A stretch of 64,000 bases of DNA from the NCBI GenBank assembly GCA_009192285.1, contig WBVU01000010.1:1052111-1116110 (forward strand), written 5' to 3'. This stretch comes from Morchella semilibera. Taxonomy: Eukaryota > Ascomycota > Pezizomycetes > Pezizales > Morchellaceae. Under the pieces are notes generated by a model. The model saw nothing but the letters and a program-made list of their open reading frames with translations, had not been told where the DNA came from and made no database searches. Shown here in pieces: positions 1 to 62,653 of this stretch. Numbering within the stretch: the first letter of the stretch is position 1; each line of letters starts with the position of its first letter. The position numbers were made by a program, and so were the translations under genes.

Positions 1-2583
1 TATTTCCACATTAGCATTTAGATAATTCTATGAGCATCTATATGAGGTTCTCTAGATCTATAGGCAAAGATGTCTCTGATAACTGAAGATCACAGTCGTC
101 GAGTTTCAAAACAGGGTCGAGTCTTGTTGGTGCTCAAGTGATGGTCTATGTCGGATGGGAATTTTGTGTTAAAAGTTTGATGCGTTTATCCGCCCGCCCT
201 TTAGCTAAATCCCGACTGGTTAGTAAATCTTGACCTGCGAAAGTGTGGCAATTCGTTGCTGGTTCACCGCCGCTCACTCGACTTGGCCTTGGGCCTGCCT
301 GTGGAAAGTATCCTATGACCTAGATGAGCCGGAAAGAAAGACGAGCGAAGATATAGGGGCAGTAGCAAGCTCTAGAGCTCATTAGGCGGGCGCTCAACAT
401 TCCAGGGAGCTGTTTCTCAAGCCGAGTGATATTGCATGACCCATAAATCTCCACCTTGCAATGTAATGTAGTTTAGCTTATAGAGGGGTTCGAGAAACGA
501 GTCCTCTCTAGTCGAGCTTCACTATCATTGTAAAGAGATTTGTGGCGATAATAGTCGAAATCTGGTCAGGCAGTTTCCCCCCGAATGATTGATGTGTTGT
601 AATTGATTGAGTAGTGCTGTAGCCTTCCGGCCATGGAACTTGGTAGCTGGATAAAACCAGTAAGCTTTTGCGTGTCTATTCAAGTAGAGGTATATAGCCG
701 CTGAATTTCGCCGACCTTCAACAAGGACTGGCAAAACAGGCATGTGGCGGTCTATGCCGCGCTTTAGCTACACCTATATGCACAGTAATCCAATATTCAT
801 GTAGATCAGTGGCCGTATGGACTTATGAGTACCACTTTTTCCCTACATATAGATACCTTGGACATAAGTCGTCTGGCGTCATGCATGAGAGTATAACTAA
901 CTATGGTTTAACTGTTTTGTTCAGTTCTTGGGCTAGTACTGTTTAGTATATCCGGTTTGAACCAAATGGTAGCCACATTAATATAATATAATTATATAAA
1001 TGAGGCCATGCGGTCGAAATTACTCTCCCTTTCGAGGACAGGAGTAGGACCTGGGTTGATCACCAGGTTATGTCAAGCGGACGAGTTACAGCACTGCATG
1101 TGCTTCTAGCTCTAACGCTCTCTGTGCTTCGGACCAAACTAGCCCGACATATCCTTCCTTGACCATGTGTGCACTGTGCATGCCTTGATATTGCCTTTCT
1201 ACAATGATTACTACTGGTGCAAGGAGGGGCTTCAGTTGTATTCCCGATTGTTTTGGCAACATTCCTGAGAATCCCGAGTGCCAACTGCCCCAGGGTTGTG
1301 TTTTGGTTATGGGGAACCCTGATATTCCTGAACCCTGGACTGTGCCGTCGTCGCTGGGGAGTTGGGATGTCTATGTCGAGTGTATTGTGTTGAAGTGAAC
1401 ATGCCGTGGCGGATGTACGACACGGGACTAGGTCGGATGTAGTCGTAGTCCTTCAGCACTGAGATCAGTTATATACTATTGCGAAGCGTTTTAACATAAC
1501 GCCTCTGAGTGTCCAAACGGTTACTGTGTCGCTACACCATGTGGGTGTTAGGGCATGCAGTCGGAAAGTCCCCTGCCTGAAGCTGGCATTTTCTTCCTGC
1601 TACACGTAGTTATCTTAACCCCTCCTTTTTGATGTGATTTTAGTTTTCGTTTTTGGATGCACAATCGACTAGCACAAAGCCGCATGCGCAACAATAGTCG
1701 TAATATCGTGGTAGAGTGCGATTCTCGAAGCGTAGCTACATGCTCGTAGGGGGGCCAGGGGAGAAGAATTCAACGTGGAAGTATAAGTTGGCCTACTACT
1801 GTAGTTGGGCAACGGAAGTGGAAAGGTTAGTTTTATACTAACAGGCAGGTATTATATGGTGTTAGCACCGGAGGGACTGTCAGCCACATGCCTTAAGGTT
1901 CGGTGCCCTAAATACATGCAGGTACATACATACATGTATTTACCCGTTGGCATCCCCCACGATATCTGCACAGGTGCACTCTTCTCTCCGTTGAATCATG
2001 ATTCATCACTCACTATCACTCCTCGCCCGACTTCAGCAACACCTTCTCCTCTCGCTCAGCAAACGGAATGTGGGAACAGCAAGGGAAGGGGCATCATCCC
2101 CGCAATCCCCGCGCTCCTCCCCCTTCTCCACGACATCGGCGTCCGGATCTCCCGAGTTTTGTCATTTGACTTTTGGTGAGGATGGAGTAGCCAATACGAA
2201 GCCTGATTGATTTGCTGACTACAGATATATAGACAGGTCCTATCCGGGTTCTTGGGTCCTCTTGCGGTTGGAATTAGAGGGATAAAACACCTTTGGCGAT
2301 CCTATACCACTCCTTCGTGTTTCTCCCTCGACCTGCGTTCTGATACGGTTGCGCTGCTTGGTTTTCTAAATGACAATTTTCAGTCTAGTGCTAAAAGGCC
2401 CAAATGAACCAACATTATATCCCGTCCATGCATAAATACGAGGTACGTATACACATACTTTTACTTCAACTACCAAATTACCCACCAATCTACATAATCT
2501 ATAGTTGCGCATAATCAATGCCACAAAACATTAAAACAAATTCATATCACCTTCCATATACCTCGTCCTATTTAAACCTAGGC
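1..2583. other. gene-poor left flank, no confident gene
   Basis: No exon chain with a recognisable domain was found on either strand. Short open frames exist, for example a Cys-containing frame at 1204-1398 (+), but none has a start context, splice partners or a family I recognise. The stretch contains three copies of the 17-bp CGAGTGAY-N4-YRTGA motif (264-280 minus, with a G at position 8; 423-439 plus; 1996-2012 minus) and a TACATGTA at 1931. Confidence 0.6.
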
Positions 2584-4696
2584 CTAAACCTTCTCATCAG
2601 CTCTCTCCCCCACCCTTTCCTCACCCTCAACAACAGTCTCGGGTACCGTCTCCGGCTTCTTCCTGCCCTCCAGCTCAACATCCTTGATAAGGAAGCTTGT
2701 CAGTAGGCAGAAACCAATCAGTGGGCATCCGATACACATGATGACATGGATGCCCTTCATGTATGCCTCTACCACACCGTTCCGCTCTGCATCTGTGAAC
2801 CCAGTTGCGGTAGTGAACTGTAGTGCTGTCGCCGGAGAGACAGTACTAGGGATATTGGAGAGAAGAACGTTGTTTAGAATTGCAGAGAAAGCTGGATTCG
2901 GGTGGCAGGTTAGCTTTCATTTAATGGGCTAAGGAAATTTTAAGTGGAGAGGTGAAGGAAAAGCTAACCAGCAAGCCCGACTGCTCCACCGACCGTCCGG
3001 ACAAAGTTTCTCAGCCCAGTTGCGGCAGCCCGATCCTCCTTGCGGGAATTTGCCAAGAGCACGATCATCCCTATAGCAGCTTACTATTAGCGCTAGGACT
3101 TAACTTGAGGGAGAATATATACTAACCGGGCTGGAAACAGCACCCGACGCCAACGCCTTCGATGATCTGTGTAATAACCATGACAGCTACATGGCTGGTC
3201 CTATGCAGGGCAATTCTTCCTCCGGCGCCCGCAGTCCAGAGGATGTATCCGGTCCTGAGTACCGCGTTGTACTTACCCACTCTTGAGATAATGACTCCGG
3301 AGGATGAGGAACCAAGTGAGAAGGCGAGAACGAGCGGGAGGATCATTACGCCCGACATGACTGGGGAATAGCCGCGGACATTTTGGTAGTAGAGGGGAAG
3401 GAAGTAGAGGTTTCCCCAGTAGACAATACCCGTCAGGAAGAAGTGCATGATAATAATTTTGGCGGCACGGATCTCGAATATACGCACTAGGAAGGGTAAG
3501 CAAGTGTTGTGAAATATATGGGAAAGGGTAGAGGTCTTAGAGTGGGCCGGGCACGGAATTGAGTGTTATGCTGGGTTGTACAGCATTATCTCTTGCCAGT
3601 CCACGACTCAATTGACCCCGAAGACACTGATGAGTGAAGTTGAACTTACTGGGCATAACAGGAACCCTTGCAACTTTCCACTCTACTGCTACGAAGAGGA
3701 TTGAAGCAACTCCACCAACTACCAGGAGGGCTATAACTAATGGCGAATCCCAGTTATAAGTACTCCCACCGCCACTGATCGGGATCTATACCACACACAA
3801 TCAGCACTCAAACTACTCAAAAGTCTTCATCACTCCATCGCATCAGATCACCTACCAATATAAATAGCACCGCTGTCAAGCTCAGAAAGATTCCCCAGAA
3901 GTCGATATGCCCTACCTTGACCCTCCAGCTCCCCTCCACCCTCGACTTTGGCACCATCATGACCACCACTCCCGTTGCAGCCGCCGTCAGTATAACCGGC
4001 AAGAAGAAGGTCCACCGCCAGCTGACACCCTCTGAGAAGGCACCGCCAATCAAGGGCCCTACGCCATTCCCGAGCGCTATGAAGGTCTCTAAATATCCCT
4101 GATACTTTCCACGCTCCTTCAGCGTGGTGATGTCACTGACAATAACCATGACGAGGGAGTTTATGCCGCCGGCGCCGATACCGGAGAGGGCGCGGAAAAT
4201 GAAGAGTTGGATGCTGGTTTGGGCAAAGCCGCAGAGGAGGTCGCCGACGGCAAGGAAGGCAAGGCATATTAGCAGACATGTCTTGCGGCCAAAGATATCG
4301 GACATGCGGCTATTTATGAGCAGGAAGGCGGTACTGGCGATAAGGAATGAGGTCCCTACCTGCGTTTCATGATCGCATTCAGTAAACTTGCCAAGAAATA
4401 GGGTAAATTTGGATGAGTAGTAATTAGTAGAAGAGGTGCAGATATATAAAGCTACTGACCCATGATATTGTTGATACTGCATCTAGATCTTTCCCAATCA
4501 CAGGTAGAGAGGTTGATACAGATGTCTGGTCTACGGTCGATATAAACAATGTCATGGCCAAAGCTAAAAATATGACAATGATGCGCTTTTTGGAGAGCGA
4601 GTTTGTCTGGTCTTGGGTATCCCGAAGCACATTCTCACCCTCACCAGCAGCGGTCGCAGCAGCAAGAGCCGCAGGAGCAACAGTAGGAGCGGCCAT
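2584..4696 (-). CDS. MFS drug:H+ antiporter, DHA2 (14-TM) family
   Basis: Predicted plasma-membrane proton-coupled efflux pump. Six exons on the minus strand keep frame: 4696-4460, 4359-3856, 3785-3650, 3486-3127, 3070-2969 and 2891-2584, giving 548 residues. The N-terminus is cytosolic and Ala-rich, followed by TM1 with the DHA2-type sequence around STVDQTSVSTSLPVIGKDL. The loop 2-3 motif A appears as SDIFGRKT, motif C-like GNGVGPLIGG follows, and a second loop-like segment SRVGKYNA is in exon 4. The C-terminal tail is Glu-rich and hydrophilic. All five introns have GT..AG ends. Length fits the 500-600 residues usual for DHA2 transporters. The substrate cannot be read from sequence. It stands alone, with no biosynthetic cluster around it in this window. 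Confidence 0.92.
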
Positions 4697-6458
4697 TAAT
4701 TGATTATTGACTGATCAACTACTTCTTTTGGTATTGAGCTACAATCAGGTCTTTGCTTGGCCCCGATTATATGTGCAGCTTAATACTTCTTCCCCGACAC
4801 AGCAGCAGCACAAACAGCAGCAGCACCGACAACCATTCTTATATAGAAAGAAAAATCTCGGAGTTTGCGTGCGGTATTAGGGGAGATACCCACTTTGACT
4901 ACTGGTAGCGGGACAAGGTACGATTCCCATTTCCGGTTACAAGTCGCCGGGTAGTTCGGCTGGATATGTAGCTTGGTGATAGCAGATTTTCTCGGTTAGT
5001 AATCCCGTTATCCCACTTCCAACTTCCGGGGAAGAGCTTCTAGAAGCGTAGGGCGTTGGGGAACCTTGGCTGTTGCTTGTTTGCCCTCCAGACTCTTGGG
5101 AGGTGTTTATCAATTGATATCTATGTTTAAGGACTGGTGGCGGTAAGTATCAACCATCTCTTCTCTTGAAGAGTTTTCTGAGCTATGCCCGCACCGATTT
5201 TCAAATTTGAAGCCTATCGAGAGATTCATTGATTCTAGTCACAGGGTTAAACGCCATGCAGTCTGCAGATCTCTCTGTTTTGTCGTGTGACGCATTCCCC
5301 CAAATGATATAGATTTAATGAAGTGCGGGACCCGGCCCGCATAAATAAGAGTGTGAATCACCTTCGATGTGCGGGCCCACCTGCATCGAATGTGTCGACT
5401 AGAATTGTGAATCGGTTATTTGATATTTGATATCAGGGATTGAACCCATGATAATGATATGGGATAACTGGTAGGACAATTCTCGGCTTGGCTTCACGTC
5501 CTGAGAATGGTTAGGGAGCCCGAGCATAACCTTACAAGCACCGGACGCCGGTATCATAATTAGGGCGATGTGTAGAAACTTTCACTGATAGCAATGAGCC
5601 AATTGATCAATTCGGCCCGACCCTGGAGCAAGGTTTATCAAGTATGTGGTTTCAGAAGACTGAATATGCACATGGATGCCCGCGAACGCGTGGGTATGAT
5701 GAATGGAAGGAGACGCGCCTGGATGTACTTGACTTACCCCGCAAACCGTCAATCTCAGTAAACTACAGACCAATCAATTAATACTCGTTTGATACATGCT
5801 TTGAGGGTGAGTTAGCGTCTGTGCGACAAGCTACCACTAGCTGAAGGGGTGTGCCTGGGGTCGGCGGTGGGCTGGCTACCGATGTTATAATGTTATAATG
5901 GGCAATGTGAGAGGAAGACCTATTAGTGGTTGATGGATCATAGGTAGTGAGGCCATAGTATAAGCTCCCAGATATAATGATGCTAAGTCTGCACGGCTGC
6001 CCCGGATACACCGTACGTTAAGAGACATGTGGCTGGCTATATACGATGTTTGGCTCTCACACGCGTATAACCCCAGTCTTTTTGGGTGTTGTGTTTCCCT
6101 TTCCTGTGCTGCTGTAGGGTATGGGTATGGGGTTTTATTTAGCTCAATGGTAGTTGTAGTGTAGTTTTCCGGTCATCAGAAGCCTGGGGCGCCCTTTTAC
6201 CAAGCGAGGGCTAGGGTCTTAGGACTTCGAGTGATACCGCATGATTTGACACACGGATGCACCCGGGAAAACCAAAGCGGTGTAGGATATATAGACCATA
6301 TCTCGCTGTAAAGGTTGATTTAATGCTAGCTTTGACCTTTTACACATAAAAGATGTAGTACAATGCCCTACGGGTAGCTTACTGTTTACCTACACGTACG
6401 TCCATGTATCCTTGTAGTGCAAATACCAGTTCCAAAACTACATGTAACTAACTAGCAA
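4697..6458. other. intergenic, no gene seen
   Basis: Between the MFS transporter start and the 3' end of the secreted-protein gene. It contains one perfect 17-bp motif (6228-6244, plus) and a TACATGTA at 6439. A B-box-like string at about 5434-5445 (minus) has no matching tRNA fold. Nothing else supported. Confidence 0.5.
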
Positions 6459-7273: not shown

Positions 7274-8504
7274 GTTTAAGTAGTGTGTAATGGGTTGGTT
7301 TGGGAGGATCTGTTTGGGCAAAGCAGGGGGGGGGTTCAATGCTCTTATATAGATCAACAGCACCGTCCAAAGATGGTTAAAGTAAGATATCGAGGCCCCT
7401 AAAACTGTTGACTGTCGATCAGATCCCCAGCTTCAATAGATGATATGTGCTGCAGGTGTCCGTCCGTGATTCCAACCAAAGGTTTTAAAAACCACACCCG
7501 GTCCTTCAGAGAGAATCTAATTTCTCGATATTCCCGCTATAGCACGTACATATGCGGGTAGAGAAACATTCAATACATGTACTCCATACTACCAAGATAG
7601 TTGTTAGATGCAAGATATGATTGTTAGATGTATGCACGATATGCAAACCTAGTTCAGTCCGGAAACGTAAAAGAAGAAACCAAAAAAACTGTCTAATACG
7701 TGTGGGTGCGGAAACCTACAGGAGTTGGTTTGTATGTTGGTTGTTGGAGATTGGGTAAGCGGTGTCCATTGGATCATGGTGGATCACTCGTCGTAAGCAT
7801 GTGCAGAATATTCGAATTCTGCTAGACCCCTATAGATTATCATCCGCTGAGACCCGCCGTTAGAATATAGACACTTATTTTGAAAGTAACCAGTCCTCGC
7901 TGTTTTCCCGGGACCTTTGACATCTATGGACAGTCGGTTCCAGTGTACCTAAATGTTGTAACTTCCCAGTTTTCCCAATGGGGCAAATAGAACTACTTTA
8001 TTATGTATATTTTAATGGTAAAGAGAGCACAGATAAAGTATGAGGACATTCTAATCTTTGGCTGTGGTTACTCGAACCCTTATGCTAGCGCACGATGGGA
8101 TACCCCCCACATTAATTAAACTTTAATGTTTTTTTAAAAGTCTTTGAGCCTTTCCCGCTTGCTCATCAATGGAGACTATACAAGGCTCTGGTTTCTTGCC
8201 TTTTACCATGGCGAGTGATAAATGGTGATTGCGTCTAACTACATGTATGTAATGCGCATATGTAATAATCAAATGATTACATGTGTATAGTCTGTAGTCT
8301 CGCTTCATCTAGCAAGAAAAATATTGATGTCATAGTGCACTTGGTTATATGTCTTATGCAGGAATTTGCGTGTTGACATTAATTTTGTAACCCGTCTGAG
8401 CCCCTGGGCCCGGCAATTAAAAGCTAGCTAGTTATTGAGTTTGTTTACAAAGCAATTCGATATATATTCGTGTCGCGACATAAATCACAGCTAGCGACTA
8501 GCTC
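7274..8504. other. intergenic between two secreted-protein genes
   Basis: Promoter side of the HsbA-like gene and 3' side of the CHRD gene. Contains a perfect 17-bp motif (7774-7790, minus) and TACATGTA at 7574 and 8241. No gene seen; a 61-codon frame at 8123-8308 (minus) is unsupported. Confidence 0.5.
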
Positions 8505-11436: not shown

Positions 11437-12313
11437 CCCATTCCCGAAGGTATTGAGGATCAAGCACTGACTGAGTGATAAATAGTGAAAGCTACCATTG
11501 AAAAATTGACTGGTGAGAAGAAATGATCTTCTGTGGGTAATTCTCGTATGGAATTCGAGGTTAAGGGTACAAGGGAACGAGGGAACCAGGCGGAAGAGAT
11601 AGGTGGGATGAATGTTGATGGCTTGTGTGGGTACTTATATATACATGTACCACTGTGATATGGCTATATGGAGTTGAAAGTTAGGTTATGATGAAATCGT
11701 TTACTCAAAGAAAGTAGCAATCACAGAAGTTGATTTTTCTTTAATATTATTTTCTTTTTTGATTAATAAGCCCTAGTTGTCTAAATCGATAAAAGTTGTG
11801 TCGTATATTATACCTGGTATATCACGTAAAAATACTATCATACTTTTTAATAGATTTGGGTTAGCTAAATGACAACCATAGGGAAAAGCAGTTAGTCTCA
11901 TTGGTTGTTCTAGAGATCATCGTTCACCCTTCTCCCCCTGCACACCGCAGTACGTAGGTACTACGGTAAGTCTCCAGAACTATGGCCTGTTGCAGTTCTG
12001 GAGACTTTCCCCTATCTCCGTAGTACATCACAGTACCTTGCACTTCTACCAAGGCAAATGGCGGGGGGTGACAGCATATGATGTAAAGGGACTACAATGT
12101 ATCTCTACATGTACTTAGGAAGGAAAGTGGGCTATGTACCTATATGTAGCACAAGGCTCCCACGGTTGATTCCGAGCTTGTACTACCTCACACAAGTGCG
12201 CTGTTCTCTATCACATAAGGGTGGTGGAGAAGGTATAAAAGGCACTAGATAGGACAATATTTGCGTTCTGATCCAGAGCATGGTGATCACTGGTGTGAAA
12301 AGTACGATAGGAT
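11437..12313. other. intergenic with hairpin element
   Basis: 3' flank of the Gly/Asn-rich gene and promoter of the F-box gene. Contains TACATGTA at 11642 and 12106 and the short hairpin element at 11958-12026. No gene seen. Confidence 0.5.
11958..12026. repeat. short hairpin element, copy A
   Basis: Inverted repeat: the left arm starts GTACTACGG and continues TAAGTCTCCAGAAC; a 14-nt spacer follows; the right arm starts GTTCTGGAGACTTT and ends CCGTAGTAC. The left arm has lost about nine bases kept in the right arm. The same arm sequence recurs at 51485-51574. Confidence 0.7.
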
Positions 12314-12383
12314 ATGACCAATATGCGTTTAATGTAAGTGCCTAAATTCGTTATCGATAAGCTCTTCTTGAACAGTATACTGT

Positions 12384-14537: not shown

Positions 14538-17172
14538 CTTTCTGTAAGCATAATCTTGGGGTTTTTTTATTTTCTTATAATGATATCGAGTGACATTTCA
14601 TGAAGAAATGCACAAATATTTAAATTATGCACAGGCATTCTAGAGAAACGTTAGCGAAACATGTGCGTGCGATCGTTCCTGGATCTCTGATCTCCCCAAC
14701 CGACGAGAGGTGATACATAAGGAAGAAGGGCACCAGATTCACCAGGGATATTTCTTTAGAGGAATAAGGGTATATGTATATCCATGATAACTAGCCGTTG
14801 GTTGCGTCCTGCCAGCGGTTACTCCTGTTCTCAAGAAGCAGCTATTTCGATGGGCAAGAAGGGGCATATGGACACATCCAGGGCTAGGGATTGTAGCAAC
14901 CACCGTGGTGAAATAATACCGTTATTTATACCCTGTAATGTCACTTTTTATGGTAAAGTACCCAAAAGGGGCGCCAATATATGAACACCGCCACTGGTGG
15001 CAAGCATTTCACCACGTTCATAAGTGTTGGCATTAACGGTTAATGGGTTATAACGCAACATAAAGACTGAAAAGTTCAGTCTTTATACTGGCACAAGGAC
15101 TGAAATTCAGTACTTATACTACAACCGGTAGTTAATAATTTGCTCTTGACACATTTACCGCCCCACACTTGTCGGCCAACAGCGCAGCTCGGCCCCGACG
15201 GTATCCACAGGTTTAATTAGGTGTATAATGTATATATGAAATGCTTTATAGGGTAAAGTACTGGTGTCTCCGTCTTTGATCATGGCACGTTTGTTCCAAT
15301 TAATGCTAGCTAAAGTCCTCGGGGAAATCTCTATATCCCCCAGTTCTAGTAAGCTACTTAGTGGCCTGGCAAAGAAGACACATGATGTCTAACTCGGAAA
15401 TAGGTACGCAGCTACAACCACTAGGCTCTACACCAAACGACATCGCCTGGTTACCCAATTGGGCAAGTACGCTATACGACGTCATCAAGACCTAAATCGT
15501 TAAATAACCCATAAAAAGTGTTCTACATACATAGTAACTATACACCGAGGAAACCCCCGCAACCAATTATTACAGGTCAATATTCTGTGCCTTTACCCAG
15601 CCAACAAATAAACACAATTAAAAAGTTTACATTCTTAATACTAAATCCCATCGGCTCAGCCATCTACCCAGAAGGGATTAATACTTGAAGCCCAATGCAG
15701 CGGTATCAAAAAAAGGTTCTCATTTGTATGATACCAGTTGCAACAAATACCACGAGAAACAAAGCATCGGCCTGATCTCTTTTGGGGACAAGTAGAAACA
15801 TGACCTTGTAAGTTCTACGCGTAAAACATGACCTTTCCTGGAAGCTTACTGTATAAAGTATGCACCACCCACCCATTGATGGAGACCTGACTGATTTGTC
15901 CATTTCATATGGGGCCTCAAAGACGCCTTATAGATATGCCTACCCACTATCTTTTTCCTGCTAGTCGTTTCAATACGGAGAATATATGAAGAGGCTATTT
16001 AGTGCTTGGTTTTCTGCCTGTTTAATGAGTTCAGAAAATTTGACTGGGCAGCCTAGGTCTACCGTAGACATGAGAGCGCATGCATACCTATACCTATTAA
16101 AGATAAACAACGGGCCGTGGTCACTACAATATATATTGCCCGAACTTCCATTGACTAAGACAAAGGAGTTTAAGTCCTTTCGATACTGTGAAGAAAAAGG
16201 GGGAGGTATAATTGATATTCTAGCGCTTCGGATGAACAAATCATCATGTGCCGCATTAGAAATATGAACCCTAGACTACAGCGCGCGGCAAATACTAAAG
16301 CTGTATCATTGCATAATCATGCAGATGTTATTAAGCCGACGCCCCAGCGGTTGTAGGAACCTCACTATTCCCATCCCGTTTTATGAAGTTCTCCCCACGG
16401 GTATTAGCTTATAGATCAACTAGCTTCAGACCCTCTCCCTCAAGATGGAGCTTTAAATAATATCTGCAGCCATACGGCAATTTATATGCAAGGTCCTATG
16501 CCAAGATATCCTCTTGGTTGCCCATGGTCTGATCCTGACAGTGGCGCAGCAGCAAAATCTACTTGGAGTCACGATTTAACTGACGAACCTTTAATTTCTC
16601 TCGCCGTCAGTCTACTTTTGTGGAACATATAGAGTCTTACCCTCTGTTGGAAATTGTTAAACACTCCACCCCCCCATCTATGGTTGCCGATCTAGTAAGA
16701 GGAATGTGAATGCCAGGCTCTTTACTATCCCAGTAACCAGATCTAACCCCTTATATTCTGTTGTTGTCACACTGAACATGGTTCTAATAAGTCTTGGTGT
16801 TTTCCCATAGCCCTATGAGGTTCTAGGATCCGGAAGCTCACCGGACCTTCCGCAGCAAATAAGAGAATCCTTTCCACGGAACACCCAGGTTTGACACATT
16901 TGATTTATCCTACTATTGGGGAATACCGTGATACAGCTAACTCATTGTGGAATGTGGGCTGTAAAATAGACTATTCGTCCGTGTTTTTAGAACGCTTATG
17001 TAGCATGGCCCGCAGGTACTAACTACAGTAGTTTCTTACGGAAATACATTACTACTATTTTGTTCCAGATATATATTATGATTGACGGTGTTTAAATTCA
17101 CCTCGATTCCCCCCCAGACTGCAGAACCCCTCATAACTATCACAGTTGAACTCATTGAGTAGTCTCATCAAG
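14538..17172. other. intergenic with decayed repeat
   Basis: No gene found over 2.6 kb. It holds a 17-bp motif (14587-14603) and a decayed copy of the 48.9-kb TIR element (about 14951-15168), and is otherwise AT-rich sequence with no domain-coding exon. A 5' exon of the GH28 gene could hide near 17.0 kb. Confidence 0.5.
14951..15168 (+). repeat. decayed copy of a TIR element (MITE family 2)
   Basis: Aligns over its length with the reverse complement of 48901-49196. Shared blocks include CCAAAAGGGGC, a GGCA(A/G)GCATTT segment, GCAACATAAAGAC(T/C)GAAA and GGCACAAGGACTGAAA. Ends are eroded compared with the other copy. A small perfect hairpin (AAAGACTGAA..TTCAGTCTTT) lies at about 15062-15085. 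Confidence 0.7.
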
Positions 17173-18824: not shown

Positions 18825-20197
18825 TCCGCTGGCAAACTGGCCAGTGTGGATAAACATAGATATGTATTTTTAATCTTGAGATATTTCCTTTATATATGTA
18901 TTTGAGGGCATTGGGAATAACTGAATTCGGTAATAAAATACTTAATTTTACAATTTGATATTGCGAGTGATTTACTATGACCAACCAGCATTAAGCAGTT
19001 CCCGTTTCCTGCACGGTTATGAATGTGGCATCGAATAAAAGGAGCACATACATGTACTATAGCTGGTATCCAGTCAAACCAAGCACACTGTTTCATGTGG
19101 GTCAAGCAGGCACACGACAAGCCCACCAAAGCACCACCACCCAGCCGAGTGATATTCCATGCACGAACACCCTCCCACCACGCATTCCAGACAAACACCC
19201 CAACAGCCCCATCTTTTTTCATAAGAAGGCCTTAAATTATAAGCAGCCCTGACCAGCTCTATCGTACATAGATACAACCCACCAACACGTACCTACCAAA
19301 CACGGGGAATTTTTCTCTTTCTCTTGCTTCTCTAGCTAGCCGGCTATGAAAACCAAACCAAACCACCGCCCAAAATACAAGCGCAAACACAAACACAAGC
19401 TACATAACACAACATCACATAGCCCAACTAACTCTACGCCCCCCCCCCCCCCTCCTCCCCCGCAAGAACAGCGCGGCGGCGGCGGGAGAGAGCAGAACAG
19501 AAGAAGAAGGAGAAGGAGAAAGAGAAAGAAAAGGTAAAAACGTAATTCTGAAATATCTTAAGGGTAAACACTCATACAGACGCACACAGACACAGACACA
19601 GATAGACACGGACACAGGGAGCGGGAAAGGACACGCATGGACCGATCCCTCCCCCCCTTATAAAGAAGATAAAACGAAGAAATGAGAAGAAATAACCCCC
19701 AAGATAATACAGAAAGAAAAAAAAAGGCGCATGAAAGAAGAGGAAGAAAAAAGGGTCAAAAGTGTTTCGAACAGAACAGAATACGTAACGGAGGGGGAGG
19801 CGGGGGAGGGAAGAATAAGCTAATTAGAGTACTTTTAGTAAAATATGTCTACCAGCCGCACTGACAAGAAAAATAAAAAAGGGAAAGGGAAAAGGTAAAA
19901 AAAAAAAAAAAAAAAAAAAAGATAACACCATTCCCACCCGCCATACCATGCCCTCCTTCCGGTTATGAATTTTTGTTGACACTTTGATTTTTTCTTCTTT
20001 TTTCTTTCTCCCTCCCTCCCTATATATGATGATACTCTATTGTCGCGGCGCCTGGCTGTATGCATGCAATCCTTTTGACCACTCAGGTAACTGCGCAGTT
20101 TCGGCGTATGCTGTGCCGCAATTGAAACACAATGTCTTTGAAAAAAAAAAAATTAGCTTATGTCGCCCTATAAAAGGGGAGTAAATTCAAGGTGTTA
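18825..20197. other. low-complexity intergenic stretch
   Basis: Contains two 17-bp motifs (18964-18980, 19146-19162) just past the GH28 stop, a C14 run near 19439, long purine-rich stretches (19.5-19.8 kb), an A tract near 19899-19921 and pyrimidine runs. Short frames here are low-complexity artefacts. No gene. Confidence 0.55.
18964..19162 (+). promoter_or_regulatory. paired 17-bp motif, 3' of GH28
   Basis: CGAGTGATTTACTATGA (18964-18980) and CGAGTGATATTCCATGC (19146-19162), both on the plus strand, 140 and 322 bases after the stop codon. The function is unknown. Confidence 0.5.
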
Positions 20198-24195: not shown

Positions 24196-25493
24196 GGCGG
24201 GTACTGATGCTGCTTGTTCTGTAGAGGAATGATGATGGTTTCTCTCCCTTTTTGTTCTCGGTGACTTGTGTGATTTGTTGTCGTGAATGTAGCCCATAAA
24301 TGCCCGCCCGCCATTCCATTCTGGCACCGAGCCACGGACTCATGTAGACCGCCCATCCAGCGGACCTCCCTGAGAGTACTTGTATTTCCACTGTAGTCCA
24401 CCGCAGCCCGCAGCCGCAGTCCACAGCCGCAACGGGTATGAAGTATGAAGTATGTACTTATGTACACAACCACCGACAGCGGGCCACCCATATCTACATA
24501 TCTACATATCTACATATCTACATATCTACATATCTACATATCTACATATCTACATCCATACATGTATCTATCTATCTACACCGCATACAGACTTACACCG
24601 GGCCCGGTACGCGCGCCGAGTACGTACTTCATGCCCATCCACACCCGGGCCCGGCCCGGCCCGCACGACCCGACCCGCAGACCCAGACCCCCACATCCCC
24701 ATCTATACAGTACATAGCCAACCCTAGCCAACCCTAGCCGCCCGCCTGCACAATAACCGGGCGGGCTCGTGACACGCTACAACACCGAGTGATGCGCCAT
24801 GACGCCGCACTGCTACAGCAGAGGGGGCGGGCGGTAAACAAGCCCTTCTCTCTCTGTGTAGTAGTAGTGGTAATGGGCTGGGCTATGGGCTATGGGCTTC
24901 TATCTATGTACATCTATATTATATACGCCCATCCGGGGGGGTATACAGCCCGGCGCGCCTTACCCATTCCCTACCCATCCCATATATACCATACACCTAT
25001 CTACACCCGTCCGTCAGTCAGCCAGTCCGTCAGTCCGTCAGTCCGTTAACCAGTCGGCACCACACACACACACCCGCAGCCTCAGACTTGCCTTTCACCA
25101 ATCACAGCTCCCCCGCCGCCGGGCAGGCGGCAGGCAGGCGGCAGCCAAAGCAAAGCCCCCATCACGCCCCCCCCCCCTCCTCCTCCTCCTGCTCCTGCTC
25201 CTCCTCCCCCCATTCCGGATAGGTTACCCGCGGGCGGGAAACGCTTGTCGCGGACCGGCGGCAGCTCTAGCTGCGCAGCCAGCGGGGGAGGGAGAGGGAA
25301 GAAAAGAGAGAGAAAGAAGGGAAGGAAGGGAACGCCCAGGAACTCCGCACTGCGCCGCCGCCGCCGCCGCCGCCGCGGCCGCGGGGCCCCAGGGGCGTCA
25401 GCCCACCGGGGGCAGAGCTCAAAAGTATCTGGTGTCATCACCGGCCGCCTGCACCACCGTCCAAAGCAAAGGGGGGGGGGGGGAAACTCACAC
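24196..25493. other. GC-rich intergenic with tandem repeat
   Basis: Downstream of Rpn13 and of the asparagine-synthetase-like gene (convergent). Holds the octanucleotide tandem repeat, a 17-bp motif (24786-24802), CCGTCAGT repeats near 25015, CCG repeats near 25350 and a G13 run (25471-25483). Long frames here come from GC-rich low complexity, not genes. Confidence 0.5.
24490..24553. repeat. octanucleotide tandem repeat (ATATCTAC)n
   Basis: Eight uninterrupted copies of ATATCTAC, followed by degenerate copies. It lies about 300 bases past the Rpn13 stop. Confidence 0.95.
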
Positions 25494-28393: not shown

Positions 28394-29895
28394 TTAGCAC
28401 TAGGGGTTAATAGACTAGATAGACCACCGCCCCCAAAAACAAGCGACATCAATCATTGCAGGGTCTACACATATGAAAACAGCAATATTCCGGGTACGAG
28501 TGACAGCCCATGACCCCTGCCTGCACGTACACCTTGCGGGCCAACGCATCGAGTGACGGCCCGTGAAGCCTCTGCCCTCCGTGCGGGTGTCCGGGTAATA
28601 CAGAAGCCCCCCCCACCATGCCGCAGCCAACAACCCAACACATACATACATACAGCCACAACTCGCCCGCACTATTATCCCCGGCCAAGAGTATTTACAC
28701 CGCCCGCCCCCTCCCCACGCCCGGGGCCTTTTCTCAGCACCCAGCCCAAGAGAGGGCGAGAAACGGGCTCCAGCAAGACCACGCGCAAAAAGGAGTGGTA
28801 ATACAGGCCGGCCGTAGAGAGGCAGGAAGCCCACCACCACCACCGCCGGATGGATAGATGGACCCCAACGAGCCTCGCCCCGCCGAACCGAAGCCATCCG
28901 ACCCCCAGGAGCGGGACGACACTACAAGAAACCACGAGTGAAAGAAAGCCAGCCACACGTACGTCCCGCCCGTCCCGCCGTGGTCCAGCCTTAAGGCCGG
29001 TACCGCACGTCAGGGTTCATAAGTATACGGGTGACAGCAAAGTCCGTGATGACCTACGACATGCCCGCCCATGCCCCCCCCCCCCCCCACCCCCATACGA
29101 GGTATGACCACCCATAAGCCACAGCTCCGTAGGGCCGCTTGCCCTCTCCATACATACCTACAGCCAACACAGCCCCGAGGGGCCACCACCAGCAACACAA
29201 ACACCACCCCTTCGTGAGCGGTACTCTCTAGATAGAGCCATCTATCCGCTGACAAAGTGTGGGGTTTGTTACATGCAGTTATTCAACAAGTGCGTAGGTG
29301 ACGGCACAGCAGTATGCGTTCGCTGCAGGTCGAATTGAAGGGTCAAAGGCCTCACTCTTCCCTTACCAGTCCATCCAGGACATTGGTTTTCACAGCCTTG
29401 CCATGATAGATATTAGATACACCCCGACCTCAGGTGTTACTGTGGCGGACATAAGATCTAGACACAGCCACCACCCACCTCTGAATGGCCGTCCGCCAAA
29501 CTGCTACAGAACGTACGTACCGTAGACACGAGCAGAAGGCATCCTACCAGGCCCCACACCGAACAGAGCAGCGGCCCCGAAAGTCTGTCCAGTTGGCTAT
29601 AAAACCCACCGAGAGTGTATGCCAAGCATCACTGGTAATCACTCGCACGCCGGTAATGATCGACCGGATAGCCAGTTTTTGTTTACATCCATTAATTGTC
29701 CGGATAGCTATATATAGCCCAGTTATCACTCCCAGTTGATTTCGTAAATACATGAAGCACAAAAAAGGCGAAACTATTTACCGTGTAGAAAAAAGTGTGC
29801 ACGTGAATAAAACGGAATATTAAACATGAAGGGCATGAAAGACATGAAAAAGAAAAGAAAGCCCCCAAACACCATATGCCCCCCCCCTCCCCCCA
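28394..29895. other. intergenic, no gene seen
   Basis: Convergent 3' flanks of CIA1 and the GT8 gene. Three 17-bp motifs (28497, 28550, 29629) and a C15 run (29074-29088). Frames on both strands are GC-rich artefacts without domain signal. Confidence 0.5.
28497..28566 (+). promoter_or_regulatory. paired 17-bp motif, 3' of CIA1
   Basis: CGAGTGACAGCCCATGA (28497-28513) and CGAGTGACGGCCCGTGA (28550-28566), same strand, 53 bases apart, starting 104 bases after the CIA1 stop. The closest pair in the window. Confidence 0.55.
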
Positions 29896-37029: not shown

Positions 37030-38979
37030 AAAGATAAAAAATCATTATGGAGTTCATTTTTAAAGTGGTAGCTGGTTGGTTTGGAATTTCTCTATTTTTC
37101 TTGTTTTGTGGAGTAATAGGGAGCTCCAGGGTTAGTAGGGATAAGGTACAACGGACAGGATAGGGTTGGGATCAGTTAGCTCGTTGCTTGGAAGGCTTCA
37201 TTCATCATCATCCTTGTCAGGGTATGTAGCATTTTTGTTTTCAGGTGCATCATCTAGAGTTTGGTAGCATTAATTATTTTCTTATTTTTTTTTTTTCACT
37301 TACTTCCATGCCCTCCCCTCCCCCGCCTTCGATCACTGTCTCACATCTGGCCCTGGTTCCCTTTTTTCAAACCCCTGTCTATTCCTTATTGCGTCTCCTA
37401 TTCTTCCGATTGGGCCTCTGTCTGTCTTGCTGGTGGTTTCTGCTCTTCTCCTTCCTCTTTGTGGTGCTGGTGTTTGTATGGAAGGTGCATAATGACGATA
37501 TGGTGGTACGGAGTTTTTTTTTTTTTTACAAAGATAAAAAAAAAAAAAAAAAAGAATGGCTGGTTGCATATCACTCATGGTGAATGAATGATTGGCCGTA
37601 CCGTCCCGTCCGTCAGTGGGTGGTTGGTAGTAGGTATGGTGGTACATACACAACAATATGGTTATTATTATGTTTCAGTATATATACTAATCCCTTTTTT
37701 CTCCCGCGCTTTTTTTTTCTTTCCCTCCCGTGCGGGGTAGAGGAGAGGTCTGGGGAGAAATTCAGATTTCGACCAGACCAGAGGTAGTAGGGCGGGAAAA
37801 GTCGCACATGTCAAAACGGTGGTGGTTGCGTGGGTGTGTGTGTGTGTGTCGGCATGGGGTATCACTCGTTCTTGGCGGCGATGATCGGATACTTAAGGCA
37901 GCAGCGGATGTACATGTATATACATGTATATACATACCGCGAAGATTTGTACGAGGCTGCCGTTGGTTGGTCATATGGTTGAAGGGATTTATCCGTGAAG
38001 ACTGGTCGTCTACTTATGCTTGCAAGTGTTTGGCTTGGGCTTAGTTATGGCCGTTCTGTCACTATAGATGAGAGGAGGTCTTAGGTACCTGTATGTACTT
38101 ATTCAATGCTGCTACGGCTGGTGACTACATGTATATATACTTTGCCTCTGAAGATGAGGGGTCCGTATATGAATGACTTCTAGTGTATACAGAAACCAAC
38201 CAAAACGCCAAACCTGAAGGTGTTGCCCGTAACCCAGACGCAATTAACAGGCCAGCGGCACTCAACTGCCTTCTTCGGCTGGCTTGTACTAGGTACATGT
38301 AGTCTTTTCCACCATACAAAGGTGGCAACTGACTGTATGTAAAGAAGGATTGACTAAAGTACACACCTGGGTATCTTCGTGAATTAACGTCCACAGCGCC
38401 TCTAAGCTCCCTGCCGTACGTTGGGCATCGCCGGCCATCAGTGAGGAAGTAGAGTCGTCCCTGGAGCTTGTTTTCTGCGTTGTGTGTTGCAGCTACTTCT
38501 TGCCCATATGGTCTGATACAGAGCCTCTAGATGGGCTGCCTGTGCGCCTCACCCCAACGGGCGGGTGACAGCCAGCTGCTATTGAAACTGGCCAGGGTTG
38601 AAGGTACGGAGAGTTAAGACGCACGCTGCCCCCTCCTTCCAGGAAGTACGGGGGTAGCGTACATGGTGAGCTAGTTGATGCAGGAGCAATTCCGCAAGTA
38701 GTGATGGGCACGAGACGAGAAGAGACGAAACGAGACTTTCATCTTGGATTAGGCCTTGGAAATCTCGAGACAATGGTCTAGTCTCGTCAAAGCTTTTGGT
38801 CATGTGACCTAGTTTCTGGAGAACCTATATAACCACGAAAGCTAATACAAATTGAGGGCTGTGGAGAAGCTCGAACCGTGGCTGGGGAGTATCATCACTC
38901 CCCGCAAGCAGATCGATCTAATCTAGATAAGCAGTCCCGCGGTACGCCCATAATCCACGGGACGCCCATACCTGCAACG

Positions 38980-39339: not shown

Positions 39340-39687
39340 CGAGTGATACGCCATGAATGTCAAGACCGACACGACAACCAGCGAACAAGACAGGGGGCTC
39401 TATATGGAATTTGGGATTGGCGTGGGTCCTCAAAGTGATGCAACGGCGGTAAAAAAAAACAATAAATTTCGCATCTACTGGCCATCCATGCACTGTGCCC
39501 AAAAGTTGTTGATTTACACAGATCGAATTGCAGCAGACAGAGAGCTCTTGACTCAATACCTAGAAGAAAAAAAAGAGCTAACTAGGTCTAGGCCGCGGCA
39601 CCAGTGCATTGTGCTCGTTTAAGGACATGTATGTTCTGCTTCTGTCTCTTACTAAAGCTACATGTTCCACCGAGTGATACTCCGTGA
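39340..39687 (+). promoter_or_regulatory. paired 17-bp motif, intergenic
   Basis: CGAGTGATACGCCATGA (39340-39356) and CGAGTGATACTCCGTGA (39671-39687), same strand, sharing GAGTGATAC beyond the core. No coding gene lies between them. Confidence 0.5.
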
Positions 39688-47085: not shown

Positions 47086-47388
47086 GGGGGTGAGGGGCGT
47101 ATTCTTAGTATCTTTGGCATTTTGTTCTTTCTTTGCTCTTTCCTTCTCTCTCTTTCCCCATTCTCTCTCTTATCTGGCCACCTGGATCAACCGGGGAGGC
47201 ATGTCATAAATAGTTTTTAAAAGTCCAGCGGAATCTGAAGTAATGGTTTCAACCTGAGTGTCTGTTCGATCTGTCTTTGGTTGGTGCCCTCCTCTATAGA
47301 GGTGACTTGAACCGTACTTATCCTTGATATCGATTAATTACATGTATTGAGCCTGCATACTGCCTTCCACACACGTGCCCCGCTGTCA

Positions 47389-47564
47389 CGAGTGACGCGC
47401 CGTGACCCACCCACCACCCACACCTCCTTACCCGCTTAAACCCAAACCACCATTCACTCCTCTCCCTCATATCACATCACCCATAGCCCGCCTGCCCACG
47501 ACCACATTCTGCCCGCCTAGCCGGGCCAACGTTTGCGTGAGCGCTAATCACAACCCATCACTCG
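47389..47564. promoter_or_regulatory. 17-bp motif pair in opposite orientation
   Basis: CGAGTGACGCGCCGTGA (47389-47405, plus) and CGAGTGATGGGTTGTGA (47548-47564, minus), about 300-480 bases past the LEO1 stop. Confidence 0.5.
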
Positions 47565-49196: not shown

Positions 49197-49407
49197 AAAC
49201 GAAACGTTTTATTTGCACTTGTAGAAAACGTTATTTTCTTTTCTTTTTTTGCACACTCAACCCAATTTTCGAGAACCGATTATAGTTTGCGCCACAATGA
49301 TACATACAATATAAATAAAAACAAGCCAAATTGATATAAACATAAATAACAAGAGGTATACCATGGTACATGCTTTAACAAACGACTAATACAGGAACAA
49401 AAGATTT

Positions 49408-50183: not shown

Positions 50184-51891
50184 AGAGAGCTTAAGGTGTT
50201 TGATGTGGATAATCTTTAAGACCGAAAGCTCGAGAGATGGGTTTGTATGAAGAAGGAGGAAGGAGTAAGGAGGGGTAAAGCGGGCCTTTTTATACCCCGA
50301 GTGTGTAGACTAGACACTCTGTCCATATAGATCTGTTCTAACGTTCTTAAAGAGGATGTTGCAGTTGTAGTACCGTGGAGTGTCGCTATCGACGTATCTA
50401 TCGGGAGTCTACGCACATGTAATCTACATCTAGATGTAATTGGTATACGTATTTTTTACCACATGTAGTTCTAGTATACGTACTAAGAAGTATTTTATTT
50501 GTTTTAAAACAACACCCAGATAATTCATGACGTACTACAGGAGAAAAGAGCAATAAGGCCACTCACGCGTAGTTAGGTTGGTTTAGCGCAAACCAGAAGT
50601 CAATCATTCCATCAAGCAAAAAATCTCTCTAGGTATAGTGAGACTCTATTTCATCACTGTAAGCCTTGATAAAACCCAACCTTGCCTCTTATCGACACTT
50701 ATTTGATGCTAGTCAACATGTTGAAGCGAATTTCAGAGTCAGAATTTATTCTTATTACATCACTATGTAGTGTACAGTGACAGGAAATAAGTGATGAACG
50801 CTCTAAGTACAAACACCAAATGTTGGTGGCGTTTTACCAAAACAGACATCACTGCATTCCATCACGTATTACCTATCGCTGTACAAGCTACTCAACTAAA
50901 ACACAATTATCAGTCTTAAAGAGGCTGTTTTTTATAACTGTTGCACATACCTGCCTAACTACACACCCAATAAGACGTAAGTACCCTTAAAACGGTTAGG
51001 GTGCTCTACTGATACCGAAAAAAATTTCGTAATCTTGGTCTAATCCGCTATTATTTTCCGGTCCGTGGTAATTTCGTCCTAATTCTTCGTACTATATCTA
51101 AATTTTTTCCAACGTGTCATAAACTACATGATTACATGCGCTCGCTTTTTCCTAGGGATTCGGTTCTTGAGCCTCGGCCTAAAAAGAAAAATTACAGAAG
51201 CGACAATCATAAAAAATCACTCGAGTAAACAACCCTAACCCTGGTAATTGATATGAGACCAGCTTGTTGGATAGCTACGTCATCTACCCACAGATACATG
51301 TATCTTACCGGAAACTAGACAAAGCGTCACTGGTTTCCAAATCTGGTGTTGACATGAATATAGTAAACCAAATATCCCCAGGCTAGGAGGCATACCCATA
51401 TCTCAACCAACTCGAACAAGGCCACTAGTTCCCCTTTTATTTATTTTTCATCTCACAGGTTTTCTGAGCCGACGATAGCTACATGTACTACGGATGTAGG
51501 GGTAAGTCTGTAGACGGTGGTCGTGGTTTCAACAGTACTAGGTGTCTACAGACCTACCCCTACACCATTAGTACATACATAAGTACATTTACTTACATAC
51601 ATGGGAATTATCCATAGATATCAACAGACCAAGTCACTGGAAGAATAGACTATTTATTTTTGGTAGCGACTGGTATTATCATATGAAGACATTATAGCCC
51701 ACCCAACAAATTCAATCAAAGTGGTTCGAATAGAGTCATTGATTTTGTACAGTGAATTAAACTCTGGATCACAAATTATAGAAAGAGTAGTATCTAGTTT
51801 AAAGATACTTAGCATGAAAATAATTTCAACGAAGAATGAGGTAGCACAAACCCGGAGAGATTTTGGTTTAATAATCCTATTGACCAACGTC
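50184..51891. other. intergenic with hairpin element
   Basis: AT-rich, no gene. Holds a 17-bp motif (51207-51223, minus), TACATGTA at 51295 and 51480, and hairpin copy B. Confidence 0.5.
51485..51574. repeat. short hairpin element, copy B
   Basis: Left arm GTACTACGG then ATGTAGGGGTAAGTCTGTAGAC; right arm (minus reading) GTACTAATGG then TGTAGGGGTAGGTCTGTAGAC; about 28-nt loop. The arms match the right arm of the element at 11958-12026, so this is a repeat family. Confidence 0.75.
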
Positions 51892-53613: not shown

Positions 53614-55511
53614 TTTTCGATTGAAGATCCTCGATTCGTTGCTAGTCGTGAAGAAGGCCCAAAGTCTCTGACATGAGTGTTAAATGCTACCACACTTGGA
53701 AACTTATACTTAAAGATAAAGGTGGTGTCATGTATATAAGTATTTGCATGGTCATAACACGCAGAGCGGGGAATCAGCGGGGAACATGCAGGTGCATGGC
53801 CCAATGACGCCACATTGCGGATATGTGTTCAAAAAAAAATAAAACAACTTAACTTGAAAGGCGCAGTTCGAACTGGATTCTCTCAACAGCATGATCACCG
53901 TTTTTTTGTGAGTGCTGCTACAATTTTATTGGTTACCAAATGACATCGAGTGATTTTGGACTATACCTGTAGAGCAACTGATAGGCTATAATGCAGACAC
54001 TATTATCAATTACAAATCCACCTTCAAATAGAACGATGCAGCCCGCCGAAATCACCGGCCCCTTAGTTTAGTCCACATCCACGGTTCAATACCTTCGTAT
54101 TATTATTTCACCTTTTGAAAAAACTGGCCGGCTGCCCTCTTGGGGCAACAAGCTAAGTAGCCACCGACTCCTAAATTCTGAGAGAAATATCACCTCAAGA
54201 CTTCTCAACAAATTCCTCCGCCCCCCTCCCCCCCAATGAATAACCCTCATAAGAAACCCGGGGAACTTATCTGATACTAAGACTATGTTGTCACCTTGTA
54301 TGCTGCTGAGTACGGGCCAAAGGTGAAGTGGGTCCATACACCCTTACGCGCTCTGCGAGTCGACTAGAGTAGTAAAGTGTTGAAAACACTAAAGCATATG
54401 TGAGAATCTATTTGCTAGAGAATTTGAAATCGATAACAAGTTCTAATTTGGGCATGCAGTGGAGCTCCACATCTCCATTTATTACTACAATCGTGACACC
54501 AAGGACAACCCTGGTAATTGTTAAACAAAGCTGCTAGCCTTTATGGTCCATGCGCTATACAAAAAACGAAGCCGCTTTTTCGAAAATGTTTACACCCACA
54601 GGACCTAGTCTCATTTTCTAAACGGAGCAGTGTTTATTGGTCAAAAATCTTGTTACTGTGCCGCAATTGCATCAAGGAGACGAAAGAAAGGAAACAAAGA
54701 CCCCAAGACGAGAATATTTTGGACGAATCAATAACCCAGGAATCCGGAGTTAGGCCCAATAATTAAGATTGAGGTTGGGCCGGGAGAGGGCAATCCCGGA
54801 GGCGGATTTAGTTGGTTTAACGGATGGAAGCGAACCGGGGTACTGTCTACATGATAACTACATATATGTAGCTGTGGTTGGGTTGGAAGAAAACTAGCCC
54901 AACCTTCAAGGGAGAAATTTGAACAATTGCATGCAATTTCCAACACTGCGTACTTATCATACCAAGGTGGCAAGAGAGGTTCCCCAATTCGTACTATCAA
55001 CATACTCCAGTGAACTAGAAGAATTGATGAACGGCGGTATCACAGCGGATCACTCGATTTATATTCATGAATGTAGGGTGCGACAGCTAAAAGGACAAGC
55101 TCGGCTTGAACCCAAAAGACTTAGTACTAGTATCTTGGGTTTGGTGGGTACATGGATTTAAGATTGCTAGGTGTTCCAGTGGTTTCATATGTACATGTAC
55201 CTCTTTTGGGCATATTCACGACTCATAAGAGAGTGCCTGCATAGCACTAGCGGCATAATTTAGCGCGGTAACCCATAGGCGCCCAATAACGTAGTTTCTC
55301 TTTGAACCAATCAGCAAGTGCTAATTGTTAAACGGCCGTGATTGTAGCTCTCATTCCCTTCGTCTCCCACCATAAACCTTTAGAGTATCTGCGGCTCTAA
55401 CACAAGCGCTAAAACCCTTCATAGCTCACAGTCTACAAACTACAAGTGAGCAAACTATCAAAAAAGTGCAAGTCCTATATAACAAAAACAATAACAACAC
55501 ACGTGGTCTAA
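53614..55511. other. intergenic, no gene seen
   Basis: AT-rich, between the F-box gene start and the Trs120 stop. One 17-bp motif (55040-55056, minus) and a TACATGTA (55192). Frames at 54518-55161 have no domain signal. Confidence 0.5.
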
Positions 55512-60187: not shown

Positions 60188-60825
60188 GATGGAGGGGCTT
60201 TGGAGGATGTTTGGTGTTCCGTTTCGTCGTTATTTCGTTGTGATTGATTGCTGGATAGGGGGGGGGGGGGGTTGAGCTAGGTGAAGTAGGATATAGGTAA
60301 GGTAGTTAAGTATTGTATTCACATACGGTTCAATAGCATGCGGTGGCTCTGGGGGACTTTGGATGGCGGGGTTTTCAAATCATTTGCAAGCGCGCATCTC
60401 CAGTAAACAAGAGATATATTGACAGAGCCGCTAGGACCGCGAATTGATTGTCGCGGGGGTGTGCCACTCTGTGTTGTACCACAGTAAAGTACACTATACA
60501 ATGGGGGGTGCCAGCCGCAATCTTTGGAATCGTTACCCTACTTTATGGGGTGTAATAGATCCATCTACAGGGGTTTGATATTGCAGGGCCCAGGGTGGGA
60601 GTTTATTTCAACATCCAAAACCATGTTGAAGTGGGGAAGGTGGGGAGCACTCTTCATTTATGTCGATCATAACCGGTCACTCGGCTTAACAAATTTGTAT
60701 CAAATTACTGATAGCTACTACACCCAGTTCATTATCATCCTTCTACGCCTACTTCCTGAAAGCGCGGAGCTCTCTTCTCCTGTAATGGCAATATTGTCAA
60801 CGAAAATGGCTCGTTCGCGAAATCG
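60188..60825. other. intergenic, Trs120 promoter side
   Basis: Contains a G14 run (60258-60271) and a 17-bp motif (60667-60683, minus). No gene. Confidence 0.5.
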
Positions 60826-62164: not shown

Positions 62165-62653
62165 TTTTTCAGTTTTTGTTTCTGATGATGAAGATGGAGC
62201 AGGTTTGTTTCGTTTGAGGGGAAAAGTAGGTACTCTACATGTATTAATAGTACTCAGGTAGGTATGGTTTCGGATCGGATAAACTCTTCGGGGCTGGGGT
62301 GACGGGAGCCAAGGCTCTTCTGGTTACACTTGCGGGATTTTGGCTCATCTGGGATCACTCGGTGGCAGTTGTGGTTAGGGGTATCTTTACCTTTTTTTTT
62401 TTTGTTTAATTCATACTCGTATACAGCCTTCCGGCTATGACGGCTGGGGTATCTTTACCTGCATATATACATGTACTTACGAAGCACGAGTTACTGGTGG
62501 CTATAGTACTAAAATATGTCGTCAAGAATAACAGATAAATTATGCAGAGCTGTTTTTGATAACTACATGTATACAAGCATGTTCATATTTCTGACAAGTG
62601 ACATATGTACATAGATATTTGTAGGTATAGGTATAAGTACAGCTTATATGTAT
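62165..62653. other. intergenic, SDR promoter side
   Basis: 489 bases between two minus-strand genes. One 17-bp motif variant (62345-62361) 181 bases upstream of the SDR start, and TACATGTA at 62236, 62468 and 62564. Confidence 0.5.

Follow-up and report, generated by a model that had tools for sequence, protein, structure and literature searches.

A 17-bp bipartite motif dispersed between genes of Morchella semilibera as a candidate site of one selective DNA-binding protein

The yeast general regulatory factors Reb1, Rap1, and Abf1 occupy specific intergenic sites genome-wide, and Sap1 and Reb1 of fission yeast read long sites and have roles in chromatin and in fork or transcription arrest. 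CTCF sites are long, information-rich, and spread genome-wide, and the 17-bp CENP-B box is bipartite and contacted by two modules. The known genome-wide fungal factors are mainly promoter-located. As described in passages of one paper, Reb1 and Rap1 bound at high-affinity sites block RNA polymerase II (Pol II) in yeast, and CTCF is capable of pausing it (PMC10310618). The main text of a Fusarium study describes conserved, strand-biased motifs downstream of genes (PMC2853525). Here, we analyzed a 17-bp motif, CGAGTGAY-N4-YRTGA, in a 64,000-nucleotide stretch of Morchella semilibera DNA (the window; assembly GCA_009192285.1, contig WBVU01000010.1, here C9, positions 1,052,111 to 1,116,110 of the forward strand), for which a preliminary description had listed 24 copies.

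In the whole assembly (56.76 Mb in 23 contigs), the motif had 6,282 exact copies (3,104 and 3,178 on the two strands), while the reversed pattern, searched in the same way as a control, had 6 (1 and 5). With up to one mismatch there were 11,031 copies compared to 280 of the control. The variant with T as the first base occurred 521 times (control, 8), and a version with the spacer N5 occurred 27 times (control, 4). In lying so far above genome chance (6,282 versus 6), the motif resembles those of general regulatory factors. A genome-wide count near random expectation had been named in the preliminary description as a possible refutation; the count was instead ~1,000 times that of the control. 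Contigs C9 and C10 were 100% identical over the 1.5 kb compared, and the numbers of unique copies are below these totals because part of the contigs are haplotype duplicates. The collinear contig pairs C9/C10, C12/C13, and C21/C22 carried corresponding matches and resembled two retained haplotypes for some chromosomes.

The strict pattern occurred on the two strands of the window at 16 exact and 7 one-mismatch sites, and these 23 sites compare with a mean of 0.33 and a maximum of 4 in 100 dinucleotide shuffles, in agreement with the earlier estimate that chance predicts well below one copy. All 24 positions listed earlier carried, on the strand given, a 17-mer of the described kind with an invariant GAGTGA core. 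Sixteen were exact and six had one mismatch, but those at 264 and 11472 had two, and a one-mismatch site at 8212 (+) had been overlooked. Their location outside coding exons agreed with our gene models, except that 11472 falls within a predicted intron; this match is probably due to chance, and that at 264 may be. The motif is thereby confirmed as real, and it is commoner relative to chance than had been claimed. It is probably of a known kind, a site spread through the genome and read by one specific DNA-binding protein. Tentatively, and with somewhat less than even confidence, we favor an abundant and highly selective protein that would work like a general regulatory factor, as a boundary or a Pol II roadblock behind genes.

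The two halves of the motif were held at a fixed distance. In 264 kb of C9 (the window and 200 kb adjoining it), spacers of 0–10 nucleotides gave 38 matches for N4, one for N3, and none for any other length, and spacers of 11–30 gave single matches at 12, 13, and 14 only. The two RTGA blocks are in direct orientation, 10 bp apart. For 91 sites, the 26 columns counted gave an information content of ~22.5 bits, with the fixed columns inflated because the set was selected by the pattern itself (exact or one mismatch). Numbered from 0, positions 1–6 and 14–16 were near-invariant, position 7 was mostly T or C, and position 13 was A or G. The bipartite, fixed-spacing form of a protein-read site was thus upheld, but the middle bases, described earlier as wholly free, were not: position 8 favored A and position 11 favored C or T (0.21 bits each), with pyrimidines at 11–12. 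The two bases 3′ of the motif were also biased (0.28 and 0.24 bits), position 17 avoiding G and position 18 avoiding A. This extension of bias into the spacer and the 3′ flank would be like that of protein contact sites. In the less biased set of all 73 occurrences of CGAGTGA in the 264 kb, T, G, and A stood at positions 14, 15, and 16 in 57, 57, and 59 cases, respectively. Two-mismatch sites numbered 39 (26 intergenic, 10 exonic, and 3 intronic), compared to 18 for the reversed pattern (9, 7, and 2). The surplus was thus intergenic, with hardly any in exons or introns.

Gene prediction used a simple finder that allows for splicing and was trained on this same sequence; it gave 69 genes in the 264 kb. 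Ten open reading frames from genes of the window were compared with Pfam: two had no match, and the other eight each matched one or more families, WD40, F-box, Leo1, LIM, and Asn_synthase among them. Over the 501 residues searched, the window's TRAPP II protein shared 90% identity with a protein of Morchella sextelata. All 61 sites with up to one mismatch were intergenic, with genes covering 43.5% of the 264 kb; the introns (13.2 kb) held no sites, compared to ~5 expected at the intergenic density.

The sites in the 264 kb were also biased towards gene 3′ ends. Fifty-nine of the 61 had a predicted gene at either end of their interval. The bin of 300–500 bp beyond a stop, which was picked after viewing the distance profile, held 18 of these 59, compared to 4.6 ± 2.0 for random intergenic positions (reached in 0 of 20,000 draws) and to 6.8 ± 2.3 when the number per interval was kept. 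A wider bin of 50–700 bp held 32 sites (15.2 ± 3.4 expected). For the 300–500 bp bin, the 200 kb outside the window gave 13/38 sites versus 2.5 ± 1.5. Exact sites gave 11/37 versus 2.8 ± 1.6, one-mismatch sites 7/22 versus 1.7 ± 1.3, and genes of at least 200 aa alone 17/59 versus 4.0 ± 1.9. When tandem intergenic regions were divided into thirds from the upstream stop, the thirds held 18, 11, and 5 sites (13, 8, and 5 outside the window). Sites were present in 31 of 49 non-divergent but in only 4 of 19 divergent intergenic regions (21/33 versus 2/11 for lengths of 300–2,500 bp, P = 0.014), and 33 of 67 gene 3′ ends had a site 50–1,000 bp away, compared to 14 of 69 5′ ends. There was no clear strand preference: counted per site and gene end, sites 50–700 bp beyond a stop had the orientation of the gene in 19 cases and the opposite orientation in 15. 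Downstream of stops the composition was T-rich and C-poor until ~240 bp, and since this composition, which resembles that of a 3′ untranslated region (UTR), fades there, the 300–500 bp peak would lie just beyond the likely 3′ UTR. The sites of the window are as follows, with distances to stops that rest on our predicted genes.

423..439, plus strand: exact motif, precedes the first predicted gene
1996..2012, minus strand: one-mismatch motif (T at first base), precedes the first predicted gene
6228..6244, plus strand: exact motif, centre 223 bp beyond the stop of gene 6459-7273(-)
7774..7790, minus strand: exact motif, 723 bp beyond the stop of gene 8505-9381(-)
8212..8228, plus strand: one-mismatch motif, absent from the earlier list, 285 bp beyond the stop of gene 8505-9381(-)
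14587..14603, plus strand: exact motif, 57 bp beyond the stop of F-box gene 12314-14537(+)
18964..18980, plus strand: exact motif, 147 bp beyond the stop of GH28-like gene 17173-18824(+)
19146..19162, plus strand: one-mismatch motif, 329 bp beyond the stop of GH28-like gene 17173-18824(+)
24786..24802, plus strand: exact motif, between convergent genes, stops at 598 and 700 bp
28497..28513, plus strand: exact motif, 111 bp beyond the stop of WD40 gene 27326-28393(+)
28550..28566, plus strand: exact motif, 164 bp beyond the stop of WD40 gene 27326-28393(+)
29629..29645, minus strand: one-mismatch motif, 259 bp beyond the stop of GT8-like gene 29896-30909(-)
31837..31853, minus strand: one-mismatch motif, divergent intergenic region
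32677..32693, minus strand: exact motif, divergent intergenic region
37852..37868, minus strand: one-mismatch motif, 830 bp beyond the stop of gene 33849-37029(+)
39340..39356, plus strand: exact motif, between convergent genes, stops at 2,318 and 1,245 bp
39671..39687, plus strand: exact motif, between convergent genes, stops at 2,649 and 914 bp
47389..47405, plus strand: exact motif, 311 bp beyond the stop of Leo1 gene 45454-47085(+)
47548..47564, minus strand: exact motif, 470 bp beyond the stop of Leo1 gene 45454-47085(+)
51207..51223, minus strand: exact motif, 677 bp beyond the stop of gene 51892-53613(-)
55040..55056, minus strand: exact motif, 464 bp beyond the stop of TRAPP II gene 55512-59964(-)
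60667..60683, minus strand: exact motif, 74 bp beyond the stop of gene 60749-62164(-)
62345..62361, minus strand: one-mismatch motif, 301 bp beyond the stop of a minus-strand gene (62654), with the next gene starting 188 bp away
264..280, minus strand: weak match with two mismatches, may be chance
11472..11488, plus strand: weak two-mismatch match inside a predicted intron, probably due to chance

A DNA-binding protein is favored by the fixed bipartite form and the lack of a clear strand preference. The sites lie behind genes, are absent from exons and introns, and occur in either orientation, as would suit a protein roadblock or boundary. From these features we infer a single binding protein, its abundance, and its roadblock or boundary effect on Pol II. 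A candidate protein whose two contact modules are spaced by roughly one helical turn would bind the motif genome-wide, and its site, in the intergenic zone behind genes, would be effective in either orientation. The bound protein could then mark or enforce the end of the transcription unit by blocking or terminating Pol II past the poly(A) site, and could maintain an open boundary between adjacent units; the 300–500 bp peak is located where a fail-safe terminator would be expected. Termination and insulation, both suggested in the preliminary description, thus stand as candidate roles. It is also possible, if on the doubtful side, that morels, and perhaps Pezizomycetes, have a dedicated protein that is unlike the known yeast general regulatory factors and that would use about one site per gene, at 3′ ends, as an orientation-free Pol II terminator or boundary. 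Thousands of almost perfect copies of a 22.5-bit site are uncommon in eukaryotes and would imply a protein under strong genome-wide selection. If a gene-end-devoted factor of this kind is real, how filamentous fungi separate neighboring transcription units would become testable, and a short, well-defined element for separating such units would become available.

Compared to the described systems, the motif is like the yeast sites of Reb1, Rap1, and Abf1 in being specific, intergenic, and genome-wide, but its sequence differs and the sites in C9 favor gene 3′ ends rather than promoters. The Reb1 consensus is TTACCCG, and the half-site CGAGTGAY bears some resemblance to CGGGTAAY, from which it differs at two positions. 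TTACCCG itself was counted 16 times on both strands of 149 kb of noncoding DNA, which by estimate is about the level set by base composition, with no clear excess. The motif shares with the fission yeast Sap1 and Reb1 sites a length suited to protein reading and with CTCF sites their length, information content, and genome-wide spread, but the consensus differs in each case. Like the CENP-B box it is a 17-bp bipartite element of two-module form, but the sequence differs and the box lies in satellite arrays, whereas the motif is dispersed between genes. Searches of the genome with the Abf1 family PF04684 and with Reb1_MybAD PF21559 gave no matches, and in both cases the control was likewise silent. 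Neither the 17 genome matches to the Myb domain nor any of 44 matches to the Tc5/CENP-B-type helix-turn-helix (HTH) domain HTH_Tnp_Tc5 was tied to the motif. Sites were not enriched at promoters, as measured from start codons rather than transcription starts: 4 of 59 lay <300 bp from a start codon (7.7 ± 2.6 expected, a weak deficit), and divergent regions were the poorest in sites. Since promoter enrichment was thus sought and was lacking, the motif is not placed in the general-regulatory-factor class despite its presumed similar way of working, and it is not assigned to the Reb1, Abf1, or CENP-B families.

A second over-represented word accompanied the motif. The 8-bp palindrome TACATGTA was the most over-represented 8-mer in the noncoding DNA of the 264 kb; besides words overlapping it or the 17-bp motif, weaker over-represented words remained, such as CACCACCG. 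It had 22,206 copies genome-wide, compared to 3,723 of its reverse, and 134 copies in the 264 kb, compared to 17, of which 131 were intergenic (examples in the window are at 1931, 6439, 7574, 37911, and 62236). Its density was 1.56 per kb in divergent, 1.01 in tandem, and 0.53 in convergent regions, and the flanks of 22 of the 134 copies had another match in the 354 kb compared. The 17-bp motif lay ≤250 bp from TACATGTA at 32 of 59 sites (20.8 ± 3.1 expected), a number matched by the top value among 2,000 permutations. The two motifs could form a two-factor punctuation in which TACATGTA would belong to the side of gene starts and CGAGTGAY-N4-YRTGA to that of gene ends.

Several results weigh against a site devoted to gene ends. 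Some sites may belong to ordinary regulatory regions, since the motif clusters around TACATGTA, whose density is highest between divergent genes. In the window alone, the 300–500 bp bin held 5 of 21 sites (2.6 ± 1.5), which was not significant. Sites per kb were close in convergent (0.33) and divergent (0.24) regions, with tandem regions at 0.57. Sixteen of the 59 sites were closer to a start codon than to a stop, and nine C9 sites <300 bp from a stop could fall within the 3′ UTR. We also took a second sample of 30 exact-site loci of 3 kb each from the first 0.35 Mb of contig C1, where partial gene models make for a weak test. None of the 30 central sites was within a predicted gene. Sixteen loci had a 3′ end as the nearest predicted end, seven had a 5′ end, and seven had no predicted end, a 3′ share indistinguishable from the 62% (36.4/59) of random intergenic positions in C9, and the 300–500 bp peak was not repeated (2 of 20 3′ distances in the bin). 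The earlier statement that many copies lie just 3′ of genes was therefore strongly supported in one 264-kb stretch but was not repeated in the C1 loci. The T–A skew switch around sites was modest in C9 (0.020 ± 0.006 versus 0.003) and did not reach significance in C1 (0.009 ± 0.011), and the G–C skew switch was common to TACATGTA sites. As a gene-model-free proof of 3′ placement, the skew switch was set aside as weak and partly common to TACATGTA.

These points bear most directly on the possibility that a protein of the same type opens chromatin and regulates transcription start, the 3′ bias being a by-product of open regions, including noncoding or antisense starts. The co-clustering with TACATGTA and its density in divergent regions, the 16 sites nearer to starts, and the lack of a 3′ excess in C1 all speak for a promoter or enhancer role of this sort. 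Divergent intergenic regions, which contain only 5′ ends, were nevertheless the poorest in sites, there was a weak deficit near start codons, and poly(dA:dT) tracts were not enriched around sites; we regard this explanation as rather doubtful. A CTCF-like architectural or insulator site, where the bound protein would separate chromatin domains or anchor loops with polymerase arrest unnecessary, appears unlikely. The long bipartite 22.5-bit form, the mean gap of 4.1 kb, and the purely intergenic location in the 264 kb are consistent with it, while the spacing was slightly clustered and not regular (coefficient of variation 1.2). A pairing at nucleosome length (5 neighbor pairs in C9, 146–182 bp apart) was post hoc and was rejected, as no such same-strand pair was seen by eye among the first 100 plus-strand exact sites listed.

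A replication origin or fork barrier, read by the origin recognition complex or a fork-blocking protein, would also suit intergenic, 3′-biased sites, and yeast origins favor intergenic places at gene 3′ ends. The G–C skew around the sites, however, has G>C to their left and C>G to their right, opposite to the usual pattern at origins, and the yeast origin consensus is A/T-rich and unlike the motif, making such a role improbable. Remains of dispersed mobile elements, or of the ends that their transposase binds, maintained perhaps through a domesticated pogo/CENP-B-like protein, are a reading already disfavored and very unlikely. The two-module 17-bp form recalls the CENP-B box and the genome has the 44 HTH_Tnp_Tc5 matches, but neither exons nor introns of the 264 kb contained sites and the flanks were unrelated. 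Among 91 flanks (61 C9 sites and 30 C1 loci), the similarity beyond overlapping neighbors amounted to two short stretches (29 and 49 bp), and 5 of the 91 had more than two matches, self included, in the 354 kb compared. The extended flanking sequence common to the copies of a transposon or miniature inverted-repeat transposable element was thus lacking, and inspection by eye of the C9 sites and C1 loci revealed neither a second element end nor a constant distance within pairs. Shared flanks had been the other refutation foreseen in the preliminary description, whose view that the motif is not a transposon stands, as the flanks formed no repeat family. A strand-specific RNA signal for 3′ processing, also already disfavored, is the least probable of all. 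It would explain the location just past stops, and conserved downstream motifs are described in the main text of the Fusarium study (PMC2853525). The sites, however, were mostly beyond the compositional 3′ UTR, and the absence of orientation preference (19 versus 15), where such a signal should be strand-biased relative to the gene, makes an RNA-level signal unlikely. The roadblock or boundary protein remains our tentative choice.

No published description of the motif was found in the open PubMed Central literature, subscription papers and supplements being outside that scope. Within the same literature, no paper contained CGAGTGA as a whole word, and ATCACTCG and CGAGTGAT led, among the fungal-motif matches listed, to no such element as judged from titles and the opening lines of abstracts. 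For Morchella and cis-regulation, the one paper obtained has the genus name only in its reference list, and no paper on general regulatory factors in filamentous fungi or Pezizomycotina was found. GAGTGA and TCACTC are not in the main text of the Fusarium study (PMC2853525).

No Rfam or tRNA match was found in the window, and positions 1–8000 had no match among phage records. The 44 Tc5/CENP-B-type HTH matches include haplotype copies, and some have internal stop codons, which suggests pogo-like transposons, possibly with domesticated copies. At window positions 48560–48650 there is a dispersed repeat of ~80–90 bp with at least 38 further genome matches at 76–88% identity, some of them haplotype pairs, which resembles a short interspersed element. 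Positions 24489–24555, amid convergent genes, carry a perfect 8-bp tandem repeat, CATATCTA, in 8.4 copies.

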